Program-made: the position numbers and the translations under genes | Notes under the pieces: generated by a model | Databases searched by the model: none | Told to the model about the DNA's origin: nothing | Seen by the model: the letters and a program-made list of their open reading frames with translations, nothing else | Shown: one piece after another, positions 2,837 through 21,076 of the stretch | How positions within the stretch are numbered: the stretch's first letter is position 1 | Layout of the letters: every line of letters starts with the position of its first letter | Assembly (NCBI RefSeq): GCF_902459745.1 | Contig: NZ_CABPSJ010000002.1 | Coordinates: 744,001 to 808,000, forward strand | Direction: 5' to 3' | Source: Pandoraea communis | Lineage (GTDB): Bacteria; Pseudomonadota; Gammaproteobacteria; Burkholderiales; Burkholderiaceae | DNA length: 64,000 bases

Positions 2837-3964
2837 ATGACTGCTACCCGACACCTCCACATCTTCAAGTCCGGCCGCCAGACCACGATGAGTGGTGTGA
2901 CGCTCGACTTCTCCGAGTCCGACCTCGAGGCGAGCGCTCGTGCATACGACCCTGCCAAACACGAGGCACCCATCGTCATCGGCCACCCGAAGCACGACGC
3001 TCCGGCCTACGGCTGGGTGCGATCGGTGTCGGTCGGCGCTGACGGGCTGATGGCTGAGCCCCACCAGGTCGATGCCGCATTTGCCGAGATCGTCGACGCT
3101 GGGCGCTACAAGAAGATCAGCGCCAGCTTCTACGTTCCCGACGCTCCGAACAATCCGGTGCCTGGCGTCTATTACTTGCGCCATGTCGCCTTTCTCGGCG
3201 CCCAGCCGCCGGCAGTAAAGGGTCTCAAGCCCGCTGAGTTCGCAGACGCGGAGACCGGCGTGATCGAGTTCGGCGACTGGGGCATGGACACCAACGCCTC
3301 ACTGTGGCGCCGGATGCGCGAATGGCTCCTGGCGAAGTTCGGTCAAGAAGCCGCTGACCAGGTCGCGCCCGACTGGCAGATCGAGGCGATGCGAGAGTCT
3401 GCACGCCAGGACAGCCTGGACACCGATCCGGCGTTCGCCGAGTCCACGATTTCCCCGCCCCATCTACCTCAACAGGAGAAGCATGCTGTGACGCCCGAGG
3501 AAAAGGCCCGACTGGAGGCCGAAAACGCCCAGCTCAAAAAACAACTGGAGGCCGCTGCCGCTCGCGAGAAAGCAAGCCTGTCCGCGAAGCGCCACGACGA
3601 CCACTTGGCCTATGCCGAGCAACTCGTCACGGGCGGCACGCTTGCCCCGAAGCACAAAGCCGCCGTTGTCGCGTTCCTCGACTTTGCTGAGAGCGAGACG
3701 GCGCTGGAGTTCGGCGAAGGCGATGCCAAGCAGCCGCTGGCAAATGCCTTCAAGACGTTCCTCGCCGATTTGCCCAAGGTCGTCGAGTTTGGTGAATCCG
3801 CCACCAAGGACAAGTCGGGCACCGGCGGCCGCGCCGACGTGGCCGAGTTTGCCGAAAAGTCGACCGATCCCGAGCGCCTCACCCTGCACGTGCGCGCCAC
3901 TGAATTGGCGGCCGAGAAGGGAATTCCCTACGAGCAGGCCGCACGCCAGCTCATCACCAATTAA
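2837..3964 (+). CDS. Head maturation protease, Mu gpI family, with scaffold domain
   Basis: Phage protease of the Mu gpI (gp32) family, needed for head assembly. The protein has 375 residues. The N-terminal ~150 residues carry the protease-like part (IVIGHPKHDAPAYGWV, then RYKKISASFYVP and RHVAFLGAQPPAVKGL). A linker follows, then from about residue 218 a charged coiled-coil scaffold (TPEEKARLEAENAQLKKQLEA). Mu encodes the scaffold Z in frame inside I, and the same arrangement is visible here (see the nested gene). Translation starts at ATG 2837 without a strong Shine-Dalgarno sequence. The major capsid gene follows after nine bases. Confidence 0.9.
   Translation: MTATRHLHIFKSGRQTTMSGVTLDFSESDLEASARAYDPAKHEAPIVIGHPKHDAPAYGWVRSVSVGADGLMAEPHQVDAAFAEIVDAGRYKKISASFYVPDAPNNPVPGVYYLRHVAFLGAQPPAVKGLKPAEFADAETGVIEFGDWGMDTNASLWRRMREWLLAKFGQEAADQVAPDWQIEAMRESARQDSLDTDPAFAESTISPPHLPQQEKHAVTPEEKARLEAENAQLKKQLEAAAAREKASLSAKRHDDHLAYAEQLVTGGTLAPKHKAAVVAFLDFAESETALEFGEGDAKQPLANAFKTFLADLPKVVEFGESATKDKSGTGGRADVAEFAEKSTDPERLTLHVRATELAAEKGIPYEQAARQLITN
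3488..3964 (+). CDS. Nested capsid scaffold protein (Mu gpZ-like), in-frame start inside the protease gene
   Basis: In-frame internal gene giving the C-terminal 158 residues of the protease ORF. The GTG at 3488 has a good ribosome-binding site, AGGAG at 3474-3478, nine bases upstream; such a site has no other purpose inside a coding region. The product is a charged coiled coil (about residues 1-35) followed by an Ala/Glu-rich body, the usual layout of an internal scaffold. Mu gpZ is known to be made from the 3' part of gene I. The internal start is inferred from the ribosome-binding site and this parallel. Confidence 0.65.
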   Translation: MTPEEKARLEAENAQLKKQLEAAAAREKASLSAKRHDDHLAYAEQLVTGGTLAPKHKAAVVAFLDFAESETALEFGEGDAKQPLANAFKTFLADLPKVVEFGESATKDKSGTGGRADVAEFAEKSTDPERLTLHVRATELAAEKGIPYEQAARQLITN

Positions 3965-3973
3965 GGAGCCAAC

Positions 3974-4897
3974 ATGGTTGACCGTCTCCGTCAGCTCCGG
4001 GTAGTCGACCCGGTCCTGACCAATATCGCACGCGGCTATCGCAACGCACAGTACATCGGCGAAGCGCTGTTCCCGATCGCTCCGTCGGACAAGGAAGGCG
4101 CAATCGTGCCGCTGTTCGGCAAGGAAGCATTCCGCCTGTGGGAAACCGAGCGCGCGATCCGCGCCAAGTCCAACGTGATGACGCCGGACGACGTCGATTC
4201 GCTCGACGTAGTGTTGCGCGAACACGACCTGGCATATCCGGTCGATTACCGCGAGCAGCAGGAGTCGATGTTTGACGCCGAAGCGCGTGCCGCCAAGCGC
4301 GTCAAAGACGCGATCGATCTTCGCCGCGAGTGGGCGTGCGCCGCGCTGGCTCAGAGCGCCAATACTTACCTGCCGGGCGGCAAGCTTGCGTTGTCGGGCT
4401 CCAGCCAGTGGAGCAATAACGGCGGGGATCCGGTAGCCGTCGTGGAAACTGCCAAGGAAGTCGTGCGCAGCCGCATCGGTATTCGCCCCAACACGATTGT
4501 GATGGGTGCCTCGGTCTATCAATCGCTCAAGTTCCACACGAAGCTGCAGGCTGCGCTGGGCAGCAACGAGCGCAAGCTCGTCACGCTCGAGCATCTGCGC
4601 ATGCTTTTCGGCATCAACGACATCTCGATCGGCGAGGCACTCGCCGGCGACGGCGCGACGGGCGACGTATGGGGCGACAACATGATCCTCGCCTACGTGG
4701 CCAAGCCGAGCGCCGACCGCGCCGCCGACTACGAAGAGCCGTCTTTCGGCTACACCCTGCGCAAGAAGGGCATGCCGGAGACGGATAAGTACGACGCCGA
4801 AGGCGGCAAGGTGCGCTTCGTGCGCCACACCGACGTCTACAAGCCCGTGGTGGTTGGCGCCGATGCCGGCTATCTGATCGCAGACACGAACGCATGA
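3974..4897 (+). CDS. Major capsid protein (Mu gpT position)
   Basis: Major head subunit, 307 residues, directly after the protease/scaffold gene, the position of gpT in Mu. It is a soluble mixed alpha/beta protein without signal or membrane segments. Recognisable features are MVDRLRQLRVVDPVLTNIA at the N-terminus, the WETERAIRAKSN segment, and the C-terminal part with FGYTLRKKGMPETDKYD and FVRHTDVYKPVVV. These features are typical of HK97-fold capsid proteins of this phage group. A ribosome-binding site (AAGGAG) precedes the ATG. The assignment rests on synteny and overall resemblance. Confidence 0.85.
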   Translation: MVDRLRQLRVVDPVLTNIARGYRNAQYIGEALFPIAPSDKEGAIVPLFGKEAFRLWETERAIRAKSNVMTPDDVDSLDVVLREHDLAYPVDYREQQESMFDAEARAAKRVKDAIDLRREWACAALAQSANTYLPGGKLALSGSSQWSNNGGDPVAVVETAKEVVRSRIGIRPNTIVMGASVYQSLKFHTKLQAALGSNERKLVTLEHLRMLFGINDISIGEALAGDGATGDVWGDNMILAYVAKPSADRAADYEEPSFGYTLRKKGMPETDKYDAEGGKVRFVRHTDVYKPVVVGADAGYLIADTNA

Positions 4898-5250
4898 GGC
4901 CGCCCATGAACACTCGAACCTATCGCGTGCATGGCATCGATCTGCATCACGACGGCCAACGCGTCCCCGAAGGCGGCGAAGTCGCGCTCGACGATACGGC
5001 AGCAGACAAGCTTCGCCGCTATCTCGAGCCGGTTGTGAACCAGGGCGATGTAGCGAAGAGAGCTGCTGCCGAAAAGGCCGCTGCTGAGAAGGCCGAGGCA
5101 GAAAAGGCAGCAGCTGAGAAAGCTGCTGCAGAGAATGCCGAGGCCGAGAAGGCTGCAGCAAAGAAAGCCGCCGATGAAAAGGCCGCCGCCGACAAGGCTG
5201 CGACCGAGGCGGCCAAGAAGGACAGTTCGTCGACCGGAGGTAAGCAATGA
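4894..5250 (+). CDS. Small head-region protein with Ala/Glu/Lys repeat tail
   Basis: Hypothetical protein of 118 residues in the head operon. The first ~45 residues form a small domain (YRVHGIDLHHDGQRVPEGGE) similar in pattern to the protein at 6781. From about residue 50 the sequence is a nearly perfect repeat of AAEKA/EAEKA units, predicted to be one long charged helix. The ATG at 4894 overlaps the capsid stop (ATGA); an ATG at 4906 is an alternative start and may be the real one. Function unknown; it could be a small scaffold-like or head-decoration accessory. Confidence 0.7.
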   Translation: MRPPMNTRTYRVHGIDLHHDGQRVPEGGEVALDDTAADKLRRYLEPVVNQGDVAKRAAAEKAAAEKAEAEKAAAEKAAAENAEAEKAAAKKAADEKAAADKAATEAAKKDSSSTGGKQ

Positions 5251-5579
5251 AAACGCAGCAGGTTGTACTGACCACTTCGGTCATCGCCGCGACGGATTTG
5301 ATCCGTCGCCGTTTCGTCGCCTTCGACGGCACCGTCTGCGCGGCTGGTGCCAAAGCGCTGGGTGTCGTCGAGGCTGACACCGAGGCAGGCGGTGTGGCGC
5401 CCGCCAACATCCTCGGCGCAATCCTCGTTGAGGCAGGCGGCGCGATCGCCGCCGGCGCGGAGGTCGAGTCGGACGCCAGCGGCCGTGCAGTGACGAAGGC
5501 TGCCGGTGCTTCCAACGGCTACGCCTGGGACAGTGCTGCCGCCGTTGGCGACCTCATTCGTATCGTGCGGAGCATCTGA
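5247..5579 (+). CDS. Capsid decoration (cement) protein, DUF2190-like
   Basis: A 110-residue protein in the head block that looks like the small capsid-cement family DUF2190. It is a beta-rich, glycine/alanine-rich sequence with RRFVAFDGTVCAAGAKALGV and GDLIRIV near the end. Such proteins trimerise on the outside of the capsid and stabilise it. The ATG overlaps the previous stop and has a strong GGAGG site eight bases upstream. The neighbouring capsid gene supports the role; the family call itself is by pattern. Confidence 0.7.
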   Translation: MKTQQVVLTTSVIAATDLIRRRFVAFDGTVCAAGAKALGVVEADTEAGGVAPANILGAILVEAGGAIAAGAEVESDASGRAVTKAAGASNGYAWDSAAAVGDLIRIVRSI

Positions 5580-5581
5580 GC

Positions 5582-5878
5582 ATGGAGAACCAGCACAAGC
5601 GCATTGCCGGCTATCGGGATCTGACGGAAGACGAGATCTCGCTGATGAACGAGGTGAAAACCAAGGCCGTCGAGGTCGGCGCGCTCGTCGAGACGCTGCG
5701 CGGCCGGCTGCCAGCCTTCAAGATCGACGGCGAGCCGGTCCAGGTCGGCGACCAGACGTTGGTGGCGGTCAGCGACGAAGCCTACGAAACCGACCGCTGG
5801 CTGACGATTGGCCAGGACCACCTGCAGCAAGGCTTCATGGCGCTGACCCGCGCCGTGGCCCGGCCGACCACATTCTGA
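5582..5878 (+). CDS. acb2: Acb2-like cyclic-oligonucleotide sponge (anti-CBASS), Acb2/Tad1 hairpin family
   Basis: A 98-residue protein that closely fits the Acb2 family (DUF7681, Acb2/Tad1 hairpin). Acb2 hexamers sequester the cyclic di- and trinucleotide signals of CBASS immunity. The signature begins at residue 5: HKRIAGYRDLTEDEISLMNE. It then has K26, a second helix with WLTIGQDHLQQGFMALTRAV and the terminal ARPTTF. Y11 and K26 match the positions I recall as ligand contacts in the Pseudomonas phage PaMx33 protein. It sits between the decoration and gp36 genes, with GGAG at 5569-5572. Older databases may list it only as a hypothetical protein. Confidence 0.82.
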   Translation: MENQHKRIAGYRDLTEDEISLMNEVKTKAVEVGALVETLRGRLPAFKIDGEPVQVGDQTLVAVSDEAYETDRWLTIGQDHLQQGFMALTRAVARPTTF

Positions 5879-5885
5879 GGTGGTC

Positions 5886-6320
5886 ATGCGTTACTGCTCG
5901 CTCGCCGACCTGCAACTGGCCATCCCGGCGCAGACGCTGATCTGGCTATCCAACGACGACGAGTCGGCCACCGCCATGAACCAGGCGGTGGTCGAGGAAG
6001 CCGTCAGGCAGGCGGAAGAGTTGGTCGATGCCCATCTTCGCGGGCGCTACAACCTGCCCCTCGACCCGGTCCCGTCTGTTGTGAAAGACATGACCGTCAA
6101 TTTGGCACGTCATTGGCTGTATGCACGCCGGCCTGAAGGCGCGGAACTGCCGGATGCCGTCACGCGCACTTACAAGTCCGCGCTGCAGATGCTTGAGGCA
6201 ATCCGGGACGCGAAACTCACGATTGGCACTCCCACTGGCGAGGCAGCGCCGGAGCCTGGCGAAATGAAGGTGCGGGCGAAGCCCCGCCGCTTCAGCGCTG
6301 ACATCTTGGATCGCTACTGA
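5886..6320 (+). CDS. Head-tail connector protein, DUF1320 / Mu gp36 family
   Basis: Protein of 144 residues matching the Mu gp36 (DUF1320) family, a connector-type protein. Typical elements are MRYCSLADLQLAIP at the start, a helical middle with AEELVDAHLRGRYNLPLDPVP, and ARHWLYARRPEG. ATG 5886 is preferred over the in-frame GTG at 5880 because a GAGGTGG site lies just upstream of the ATG and the family begins M-x-Y. Its stop overlaps the start of the gp37-type gene (TGATG). Confidence 0.88.
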   Translation: MRYCSLADLQLAIPAQTLIWLSNDDESATAMNQAVVEEAVRQAEELVDAHLRGRYNLPLDPVPSVVKDMTVNLARHWLYARRPEGAELPDAVTRTYKSALQMLEAIRDAKLTIGTPTGEAAPEPGEMKVRAKPRRFSADILDRY

Positions 6321-6784
6321 TGGCCACGACGCTGCAGATCATCGACGCGGTCGTGAAGCGCCTAGCCGTGAAGCTGCCACACCTGGCTGCGGAGTACTTC
6401 CCCGACAAGCCTTCGGAGTATCGACTGAACCATCCCAAGGGCGCGCTCCTAGTCAGTTACCTGGGGAGCCAGTTCGATAAGACGGTTGACGTCACCTACA
6501 TCGCACAGCCGCGCACCGTGAAGCTGTCGGTCACCGTGATCTTGCGTCAGCTCAACGGTAAGGGCGGCGCCGTCGACGTGGTGGACCTCGTGCGTGCTGC
6601 ATTGGTGGGGTTCCGCCCACCCGACTGCCGCAAGGTCTGGGCAGTGTCGGAGAAGTTCTTGGGAGAGACGGCAGGCTTGTGGCAGTACGCCGTGGACGTA
6701 GCTTCCGAAGCCATGCTGGTTGAGGACGCTGACGTCAACACTGAAACACCTCTGACTGAGGTGACCTACGAGGAGGATGCATGA
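6320..6784 (+). CDS. Mu gp37-like protein (Gp37 family)
   Basis: A 154-residue protein in the gp37 position of the Mu head-tail joining region. The sequence has the family's layout: an N-terminal helix (LQIIDAVVKRLAVKLPHL), a beta-strand core with GALLVSYLGSQFDKT, and VTVILRQLNGKGGAVDVVDL. Members of this group are thought to act in neck or tail-terminator assembly. It overlaps the preceding gene by one base, and its own stop overlaps the ATG at 6781. Confidence 0.8.
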   Translation: MATTLQIIDAVVKRLAVKLPHLAAEYFPDKPSEYRLNHPKGALLVSYLGSQFDKTVDVTYIAQPRTVKLSVTVILRQLNGKGGAVDVVDLVRAALVGFRPPDCRKVWAVSEKFLGETAGLWQYAVDVASEAMLVEDADVNTETPLTEVTYEEDA

Positions 6785-7005
6785 AATTCCGCTACAGCGG
6801 GCCGACGAGCGGCGTGACGCTGCACAACGGCGAAGAGCATCAGGAGGTGATGCTCCATACCGGGGAGGAAGTCGACCTGCCTGAAACCCACGAATACACA
6901 CGGACCCTGTTGGCCTTGGGTCACCTGACCCCGGTCAAACAGGGCGGTAAGCCTGCCGCACGTGCGACTGTCAGCGCGGACGGAACCGCTGCCAAAGGAG
7001 AGTAA
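6781..7005 (+). CDS. Small phage protein upstream of sheath, DUF7210-like
   Basis: A 74-residue protein between gp37 and the tail sheath. Its first ~50 residues (MKFRYSGPTSGVTLHNGEE, then LHTGEEVDLPETHEYTRTL) resemble a small beta-rich domain that is also suggested in the protein at 4894. The C-terminus is a short Ala/Lys tail. ATG 6781 overlaps the gp37 stop and has a strong GAGGAGG site. Mu has a small gene at this point (gp38); function unknown. Confidence 0.7.
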   Translation: MKFRYSGPTSGVTLHNGEEHQEVMLHTGEEVDLPETHEYTRTLLALGHLTPVKQGGKPAARATVSADGTAAKGE

Positions 7006-7008
7006 GCG

Positions 7009-8439
7009 ATGGCTGCAAACTACTTGCATGGTGTGGAAACCATCGAGGTCGAGAATGGACCGCGCCCGGTCCGTACCGTCAAATCGGCAGTGATCGGGCT
7101 GATCGGTACGGCACCGACCGGCCCCGTCAACGTGGCCACGCTGTCACTGTCGGAAAAGGATGCGGCCGCGTTCGGTTCGCAGCTTCCCGGCTTCACCATT
7201 CCGCAGGCGCTCGACGCGATCTACGATCATGGCGCGGGCACCGTCATCGTCGTTAACGTGCTGGATCCGGCGATTCACAAGACGGCTGTGCCCAGCGAGG
7301 CGGTCACCTTCGACGCGTCCACCGATCGGGTGGGCCTGGCTCATGGGGCCGTGGCCTCGCTCGTCGTCAAGAGCAACGATGGAAACACGACGCACGTTCT
7401 CGGCACCGACTATTCGGCCGACCCGCTCACGGGGACGCTGACCCGCGTCAAGGGCGGCGGCATCGCTGCAGGCGCGAGCGTGAAGGCCAGCTACGATTAC
7501 GCGGACCCGACCAAGGTCACGGCCGCCGACATCATCGGTGCCGTTAACGCTGCAGGCGTACGCACGGGTATCAAGGCGCTCAAGGACACCTACAACCTGT
7601 TCGGGTTCTTCGCCAAGATCCTGATTTCGCCGGCGTTCTGCACGCAGAATTCGGTCGCCACCGAAATGATCGCCATGGCCGACCAGCTCGACGCTGTGGC
7701 CTATATCGATGCGCCGATCGGCACCACCTACGCGCAGGCGATCGCAGGTCGCGGTCCGATGGGCACCATCAACTTCAATACATCGAGCGACCGTGTGCGT
7801 CTGTGCTATCCGCACGTGAAGGTGTACGACGCCGTGACGAACGCAGAGCGCCTCGAGCCGCTGTCCGCTCGAGCTGCAGGGCTGCGTGCCAAGATCGACT
7901 TGGAAAAGGGTTTCTGGTGGTCGAGCTCCAACCAAGAGATTGCCGGCGTGACAGGCGTGGAGCGGCAGCTCTCGGCAATGATCGACGACCCGCAGTCCGA
8001 GGTGAATCTGCTCAACGAGCAAGGGATCACCACGATCTTCTCCAGCTATGGGTCGGGCTTCCGTCTCTGGGGTAACCGTACTGCTGCGTGGCCGACGGTC
8101 ACGCACATGCGCAACTTCGAGAACGTCCGGCGCACGGCTGACGTGATCAATGAGTCTCTGCGGTACTTCAGTCAGCAGTACATCGATATGCCGATCAATC
8201 AGGCGTTGATTGACGCGCTGACTGAGTCCGTGAACGGGTACGGCCGCAAGCTCATCGGCGACGGCGCGTTGCTCGGCTTCAAAGCCTGGTTCGACCCAGC
8301 CCGCAACGAAGAGACCGAGCTGGCCAATGGGCATCTGCTCATCAGCTACAAATTCACTGTGCCGCCGCCGCTCGAGCGGCTCACGTTTGAGACCGAGATC
8401 ACCTCGGAATATCTGCTGACCCTGAAGGGAGGTAACTGA
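7009..8439 (+). CDS. Contractile tail sheath protein (P2 FI-like)
   Basis: Tail sheath subunit of 476 residues, which contracts around the tube on infection. It belongs to the P2 FI / Mu gpL type. Signals are HGVETIEVENGPRPVRTVKSA at the N-terminus, TAPTGPVN, the mid-region GFFAKILISPAF, and the C-terminal GYGRKLIGDGALLGFKAWFD plus YKFTVPPPLERLTFE. A probable surface insertion lies between residues ~90 and 170. GGAG lies nine bases before the ATG. The tube gene follows after two bases, as in P2 (FI-FII). Confidence 0.95.
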   Translation: MAANYLHGVETIEVENGPRPVRTVKSAVIGLIGTAPTGPVNVATLSLSEKDAAAFGSQLPGFTIPQALDAIYDHGAGTVIVVNVLDPAIHKTAVPSEAVTFDASTDRVGLAHGAVASLVVKSNDGNTTHVLGTDYSADPLTGTLTRVKGGGIAAGASVKASYDYADPTKVTAADIIGAVNAAGVRTGIKALKDTYNLFGFFAKILISPAFCTQNSVATEMIAMADQLDAVAYIDAPIGTTYAQAIAGRGPMGTINFNTSSDRVRLCYPHVKVYDAVTNAERLEPLSARAAGLRAKIDLEKGFWWSSSNQEIAGVTGVERQLSAMIDDPQSEVNLLNEQGITTIFSSYGSGFRLWGNRTAAWPTVTHMRNFENVRRTADVINESLRYFSQQYIDMPINQALIDALTESVNGYGRKLIGDGALLGFKAWFDPARNEETELANGHLLISYKFTVPPPLERLTFETEITSEYLLTLKGGN

Positions 8440-20278: not shown

Positions 20279-21076
20279 ATGCACATCGCAACACCCATCA
20301 TCCCGTGGCTTGGCGGGAAACGCCGTCTCGCGGACAAGCTGCTACCGCTCTTTCCGCCTCATGAGTGCTACGTGGAAGTGTTCTGTGGCGGGGCAGCCCT
20401 CTATTTTCTGCGCCCGATTCCCGCTCACGTCGAGGTAATCAACGATATCAACGGCGAGTTGGTGAACCTTTACCGGGTTGTACAACATCACCTCGAAGAG
20501 TTTGTTCGCCAGTTCAAATGGGCGATTTCCAGTCGACAGGTATTTGAATGGCAGAAGATGACGTCGCCGGCAACGCTGACAGACATACAGCGCGCCGCGC
20601 GCTTCTACTACCTACAACACCACGCGTTCGGCGGAAAGATCGACGGGCAGACGTTCGGCACCGCGACGACCGCCCCGACAGTTAACCTTCTACGCATCGA
20701 AGAACAGCTCTCGGCGGCCCACTTGCGCCTAGCTGGCACCACCGTCGAAAACCTGTCGTGGCATGACTGCATGCGCCGCTACGACCGCGCGCATACGTTC
20801 TTCTACCTCGACCCTCCCTACTGGCAGACGGAGGGGTATGGCGTGCCGTTCGAGTTTGGGGAGTATGAGCGCATGGCTGCGATCATGCGCGAGTGCAAAG
20901 GCAAGGTGATGTTGTCCATAAACGATCACCCCGACATCCGGGATGCCTTCGCCAGCCTACACATCGCGGAGCTGGACATCCGGTACTCGGTGGCCAACGC
21001 ACGCGGTACGCCTCAGACCAGTAAAGAACTGGTCATCATGAATTGGGAAGCGCAGGTGTTTGGCGGCCTATTCTGA
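20279..21076 (+). CDS. DNA adenine methylase (D12 class, Dam-like) at prophage right end
   Basis: N6-adenine DNA methyltransferase of the D12 class, 265 residues. Motif I is PIIPWLGGKRRLADKLLPLF, with the cofactor-binding EVFCGGAALYF; the catalytic DPPY is in FFYLDPPYWQT (about residue 177). It sits at the extreme right end of the prophage, where Mu carries its mom modification gene. It probably protects phage DNA from restriction. The 144-base spacer before it probably carries its promoter (CACGATAAATG next to the start codon); no GATC sites are visible there. Confidence 0.93.
   Translation: MHIATPIIPWLGGKRRLADKLLPLFPPHECYVEVFCGGAALYFLRPIPAHVEVINDINGELVNLYRVVQHHLEEFVRQFKWAISSRQVFEWQKMTSPATLTDIQRAARFYYLQHHAFGGKIDGQTFGTATTAPTVNLLRIEEQLSAAHLRLAGTTVENLSWHDCMRRYDRAHTFFYLDPPYWQTEGYGVPFEFGEYERMAAIMRECKGKVMLSINDHPDIRDAFASLHIAELDIRYSVANARGTPQTSKELVIMNWEAQVFGGLF

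Follow-up and report, generated by a model that had tools for sequence, protein, structure and literature searches.

A protein of 98 residues encoded at positions 5582-5878 of the window, as we call the whole 64,000-nucleotide stretch of Pandoraea communis DNA analyzed here, was confirmed as a member of the Acb2 family. We conclude, with a probability of roughly 92%, that a Mu-like prophage carries its gene, within the late head operon, as an accessory anti-CBASS sponge cassette. The family assignment, the predicted fold and the conserved pocket residues suggest an anti-CBASS function as the best reading. We infer that the protein would form a hexamer, with three pockets for cyclic dinucleotides, lined by Y11 and K26 among other residues, and with sites for cyclic trinucleotides at the ends of a central channel. 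Upon entry into the lytic phase, the sponge would be produced alongside the head proteins and would mop up CBASS alarm molecules, so that the suicide effectors of the host would not be triggered before virions are finished.

The reading frame starts with ATG and runs through 98 codons on the forward strand, exactly as the first-pass annotation had described it. A Pfam search of the product identified Acb2_Tad1_hairpin (PF24729) with 57.7 bits (cut-off 27, E = 1.3e-15), the match spanning profile positions 1-58 of 58, and no other Pfam family up to E = 1. The first-pass annotation had named DUF7681/Acb2 as the profile to search with; the Acb2 profile was matched in the form of PF24729, and no row carried the name DUF7681. 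Among the PHROGs, the product matched phrog_717 (E = 2.2e-23). The NCBIfam search returned a single row at chance level (E = 0.079), and the PADLOC models gave no match at E = 0.01. A phmmer query of the PDB sequences placed the 8h2j group (Acb2 of PaP2/PaMx33; E = 7e-14) and the 8ixz group (E = 2.8e-13) first and second, both aligned end to end, followed by T4 Vs.4 with an insignificant E of 0.6. In phage records, 219 of 50,697 contained a match, in all cases less than 60% identical. The motifs proposed earlier as an Acb2 signature were all located in the sequence, namely HKRIAGYRDLT at residues 5-15, K26, WLTIGQDHLQQGFMALTRAV at residues 73-92, and PTTF at the C-terminal end.

An AlphaFold model of the protein, built from an alignment of 38 sequences, had a mean pLDDT of 85.5. 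It consists of a short N-terminal helix (residues 4-7) and two long antiparallel helices (16-42 and 65-93), as in Acb2, with two short strands at the hairpin tip. Foldseek comparison of the model with the PDB gave a top nine made up of six chains of Acb2 (E = 5e-5 to 4e-4), among them 8h2j and 8h2x, and three of T4 Vs.4 (E = 0.009 to 0.017), with a prefoldin (E = 0.19) as the next match. The rmsd to the Acb2 and Vs.4 chains was 3.3-6.5 A, so that the helices are only roughly superposed. The profile, the end-to-end alignment with 8h2j, and the modeled fold together bear out the family assignment of the first-pass annotation. Its correspondence between Y11 and K26 and the same residues of PaMx33 Acb2 also held in the alignment. 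We take these residues, following that annotation, to belong to the cyclic-dinucleotide pocket of Acb2. In 40 aligned homologues of 73-109 residues, Y11 was kept in 37 and K26 in 39, and N23, R72, W73, Q82, G84, and P95 were kept in every one; the conservation of the QQGFMALT stretch is inflated, because it served as one of the search patterns for fetching loci. R72 aligns with R67 of the RW motif of PaMx33 Acb2, presumably a residue of the trinucleotide site, and a literature search for R67 of PaMx33 Acb2 found nothing on its role. We also considered Tad1, which, according to a review (PMC12043709), has an N-terminal beta-sheet ahead of two long helices. This identity was rejected, since the first element of the 98-residue model is a helix and strands of at least three residues occur at the hairpin tip alone.

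The head operon (Table 1) contains, in this order, genes for a portal, a Mu F-like protein, a head protease, the capsid protein, a 118-residue protein, the cement protein, the Acb2 homologue, Gp36, and Gp37, in agreement with the Mu-like prophage head-gene setting claimed at first pass. The acb2 gene starts two bases after the cement gene stop and ends one base before the GTG of the Gp36 reading frame; in the junction comparison, most Gp36 homologues begin at or near the point of an internal ATG at 5886 rather than at the GTG at 5880. The part of the element that lies upstream of the window contains AAA ATPase, GemA, Mor, and Mu Gp27 matches over their cut-offs and transposase-core (rve) and terminase matches below them, which together indicate that the prophage is Mu-like. 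No promoter-like site was found in 3900-7100, which says little, as 0.5 would be expected by chance. The 118-residue protein between capsid and cement (4894-5250) has a long alanine/lysine/glutamate repeat tail, and its counterparts in related loci, save the closest ones, are weakly alike or were not found. Downstream of the prophage tail genes lies a D12-class N6-adenine DNA methyltransferase (20279-21076; PF02086; PADLOC MTase_II, E = 6.9e-99), possibly a second counter-defence gene directed against restriction.

Table 1. The acb2 homologue and annotated genes of the same head operon (window coordinates).
Feature	Position	Strand	Evidence
acb2 homologue, predicted 98-residue cyclic-oligonucleotide sponge	5582..5878	+	PF24729; phmmer to 8h2j; AlphaFold/Foldseek
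Major capsid protein	3974..4897	+	Phage_cap_E PF03864; phrog_1005
Phage cement/head protein	5247..5579	+	Phage_cement_2 PF09956, E = 1e-11; phrog_673
Mu Gp36-type head-tail adaptor	5880..6320	+	Phage_Mu_Gp36 PF07030, E = 2.5e-37; phrog_195
Mu Gp37-type protein, next after Gp36	6320..6784	+	PF09646, E = 6.9e-56

Searches of 101 related genomes, the own one included, found acb2 in two, the 5.7-Mb host genome (G000) and G027. The latter has two copies (L049 and L050), each 95% identical to the gene in the window and set in its own copy of this head-gene arrangement. Across the family, 10 of 398 genomes matched the Acb2 profile at E = 0.001, nine of them over the cut-off. By both counts acb2 is a rare gene here, which speaks somewhat against our reading. 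For the eight matching genomes outside the genus, viewed about 1.5 kb to each side, the head genes of the window were present only at one locus (L132 in G387). A shared place near Mu-like head genes was not found for the wider family among 34 more distant loci, several of them short or cut: a Gp36 relative adjoins acb2 only in L042 and L045, and in L023 one lies about 600 bases upstream. When the Gp36 profile was applied to nine other loci, L135 and L138 matched, which they do by construction because their own Gp36 sequences are part of the profile; the other seven did not, six of them extending just about 1.0-1.5 kb to each side. Public records of Pseudomonas phages also contain homologues, for example at L135:5001-5288, annotated as 'NAD/FAD-utilizing enzyme'. 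This label misleads, since the L135 protein, the one tested, is an Acb2 hairpin protein according to Pfam.

CBASS cyclases were sought in 32 genomes of the genus with three models. The SMODS model matched four genomes at E = 0.01 (two over the cut-off), the DncV-like model four (three over the cut-off), and one broad PADLOC cyclase model seven; jointly they name the same seven genomes. As the SMODS and PADLOC searches also matched 4 and 6 of 14 control genomes, weak matches alone prove little. PADLOC scans were then applied to 20 proteins from the seven cyclase places. G017 and G030 each encode a phospholipase effector, a cyclase, E1-E2, and JAB, and G021 encodes a cyclase and E1-E2, the only two proteins scanned there. 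The cyclase is accompanied by TRIP13 and NucC in G005, by TRIP13 and a SAVED endonuclease in G014, and by a phospholipase in G001 and G009, G001 having a second weak match as well. NucC is triggered by cA3, and phospholipases of the CapV type by 3',3'-cGAMP; both molecules fall within the reported ligand range of Acb2.

The look for CBASS operons in relatives that the first-pass annotation had recommended was thus rewarded, with cyclases beside CBASS partner genes in 7 of the 32 genomes. Its suggestion that CBASS exerts selection in this host group was only partly upheld: the seven genomes speak for it, but none of the three models found a cyclase in the two acb2-carrying genomes, G000 and G027, which leaves a link between acb2 and CBASS in this group at most plausible. 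The location in the capsid cluster, from which that suggestion had been drawn, is not in itself evidence of such selection. Panoptes (mCpol, PF18182), which would make a sponge a liability, was considered as well and matched none of the 32 genomes at E = 0.01, in a search that matched 3 of 14 known genomes, none over the cut-off.

The lack of a detected cyclase in the two carriers could mean that the sponge serves mainly against another nucleotide signal, such as cyclic oligoadenylates from type III CRISPR systems or cyclic dinucleotides of the host, and the binding of cyclic di- and trinucleotides alike, described for Acb2 in a review (PMC12043709), would fit this. However, other members of the genus do have CBASS genes, and a temperate phage meets other hosts, so that absence of CBASS from the present lysogen is weak evidence. 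We regard this explanation as very unlikely and retain CBASS as the probable target.

Better evidence than the place in the capsid cluster came from a comparison of filled and empty sites, which points to acb2 as a selectable extra. A scan with the neighboring Gp36 returned 54 loci, a sample therefore picked by Gp36 similarity, in which we measured the gap between the cement stop and the counterpart of the GTG at 5880. In 12 loci, which include near copies (e.g., L060 and L061) and one acb2 gene identical to that of the window (L051), acb2 lies between the cement gene and Gp36, and the gap is 297-303 nt. In 34 loci, the two genes adjoin without acb2, and the gap is -7 to +10 nt. The remaining eight were not judged, four having a rearranged cement gene and four no cement match in the stretch compared. 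All gene-to-gene joints were clean at the 7 filled and 13 empty sites inspected. At the filled ones, the cement stop overlaps acb2 or lies at most 2 bases before it, with the Gp36 start 7-9 bases beyond the acb2 stop; at the empty ones, the cement stop runs straight into the Gp36 start or precedes it by up to about 16 bases. The 12 filled versus 34 empty loci mark acb2 as an accessory cassette.

This comparison also bears on whether the protein might instead be a structural or assembly component of the head, such as a minor decoration protein or a head-completion factor, with no more in common with Acb2 than the hairpin fold. A gene set within the head operon, its start and stop codons adjoining those of its neighbors, would suit such a role, as would the location next to Gp36 that B3-like phages share and the position of a homologue in Vibrio phage 1.246.O just before the tail sheath gene. 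We set this explanation aside as highly improbable, because acb2 is missing from 34 related loci in which the same two genes, cement and Gp36, meet at a short junction. Homologues also occur elsewhere, for example at the end of the run of replication genes in PaMx33, and the ligand-pocket residues are kept.

A Gp36 tree was built with 42 rows, 12 carrying acb2 and 30 lacking it. The presence label requires 6 changes on this tree, at least 2 of them imposed by well-supported branches, and is clustered in comparison with shuffled labels (mean 10.6 changes). These changes suggest that the cassette was probably gained or lost more than once. In the nine pairs computed, dN/dS of acb2 was 0.03-0.32, much like that of three neighbor genes (0.05-0.40), and indicates purifying selection. 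A recent transfer of acb2 was considered because its dS was lower than that of the neighbors in some pairs, yet the closest pair, the window and L049, did not follow this pattern (dS 0.654 for acb2 and 0.358 for cement); we therefore draw no claim of transfer from dS. That the gene is a degenerate relic with lost function, as the lack of a detected CBASS cyclase to select for it in the present lysogen might hint, has next to no probability given the full-length frame, the low dN/dS and the two 95% identical copies in G027.

A bolder reading, which we consider unlikely and put forward tentatively, would make the gap immediately before gp36 a site at which acb2 docks repeatedly in separate transposable-phage lineages, as timing and rate of sponge production would matter when matched to those of capsid. 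These lineages would comprise the Mu-like prophages of this study, JBD67, which is B3-like, and, at a greater distance, L042 and L045. Capsid and sponge would be best co-expressed if CBASS sensed head assembly, and another review (PMC10419184), in which phages lacking acb2 escape CBASS via capsid mutation, provides a ground for this idea.

With respect to known systems, the find shows a tested anti-CBASS sponge family to be present also in Mu-like prophages of beta-proteobacteria, in an operon position as in JBD67. It alters no general picture and adds a well-supported further Acb2 member in a known kind of place. Its most useful by-product is the set of related prophages with and without acb2 at one site, which makes a clean comparison possible. 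In one literature collection, no paper turned up that pairs Acb2 with 'transposable phage', or Pandoraea with CBASS, in those words.

One of the closest known systems is Acb2 of PaMx33/PaP2 (p26; PDB 8h2j, 8h2x, 8ixz). It aligns over the whole length, shares the fold predicted here, and has Y11 and K26 at the same positions and R67-W68 aligned with R72-W73 of our protein. However, identity is 39%, and our protein is a net five residues longer, the extra residues lying in the hairpin tip, which is modeled as a small beta-hairpin. In PaMx33, moreover, acb2 ends the replication genes, and the adjoining structural gene is on the other strand. The review cited above (PMC12043709) describes an Acb2 hexamer that binds three 3',3'-cGAMP and two cyclic trinucleotides, and Acb2 activity in lysogenic induction, not in maintenance.

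T4 Vs.4, also an Acb2 (PDB 7uq2), is like our protein in fold, occupying Foldseek ranks 7-9, and unlike it in sequence, for which the phmmer match is weak. Position 9 of the 7uq2 chain, the tyrosine of the same GY motif, aligns with Y11. Assuming one added residue in the crystallized chain, this would be Y8 of T4 Acb2, and a figure legend of PMC12657230 describes the Y8A mutant as binding-deficient.

The operon position has its nearest parallels in two transposable Pseudomonas phages. In Beetrevirus JBD67 (gp0038, according to the record annotation) and in vB_Pae-SS2019XII (according to Pfam, with PF24729 followed by PF07030), acb2 lies directly upstream of a Gp36-type gene. The proteins are 43% and 40% identical to ours, respectively, and unlike in the window, the gene upstream of acb2 has no PF09956 cement match. 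JBD18 presents an empty site, its upstream gene and Gp36 adjoining without acb2. According to a 2026 paper citing Huiting et al. 2023 (PMC13083879), induced Acb2 rescues JBD67 delta-acb2 and JBD18 only partly. Given the precedent of JBD67 and vB_Pae-SS2019XII, neither the Acb2 family nor its place in a capsid gene cluster is new; the Pandoraea prophage joins these phages as a further case of both.
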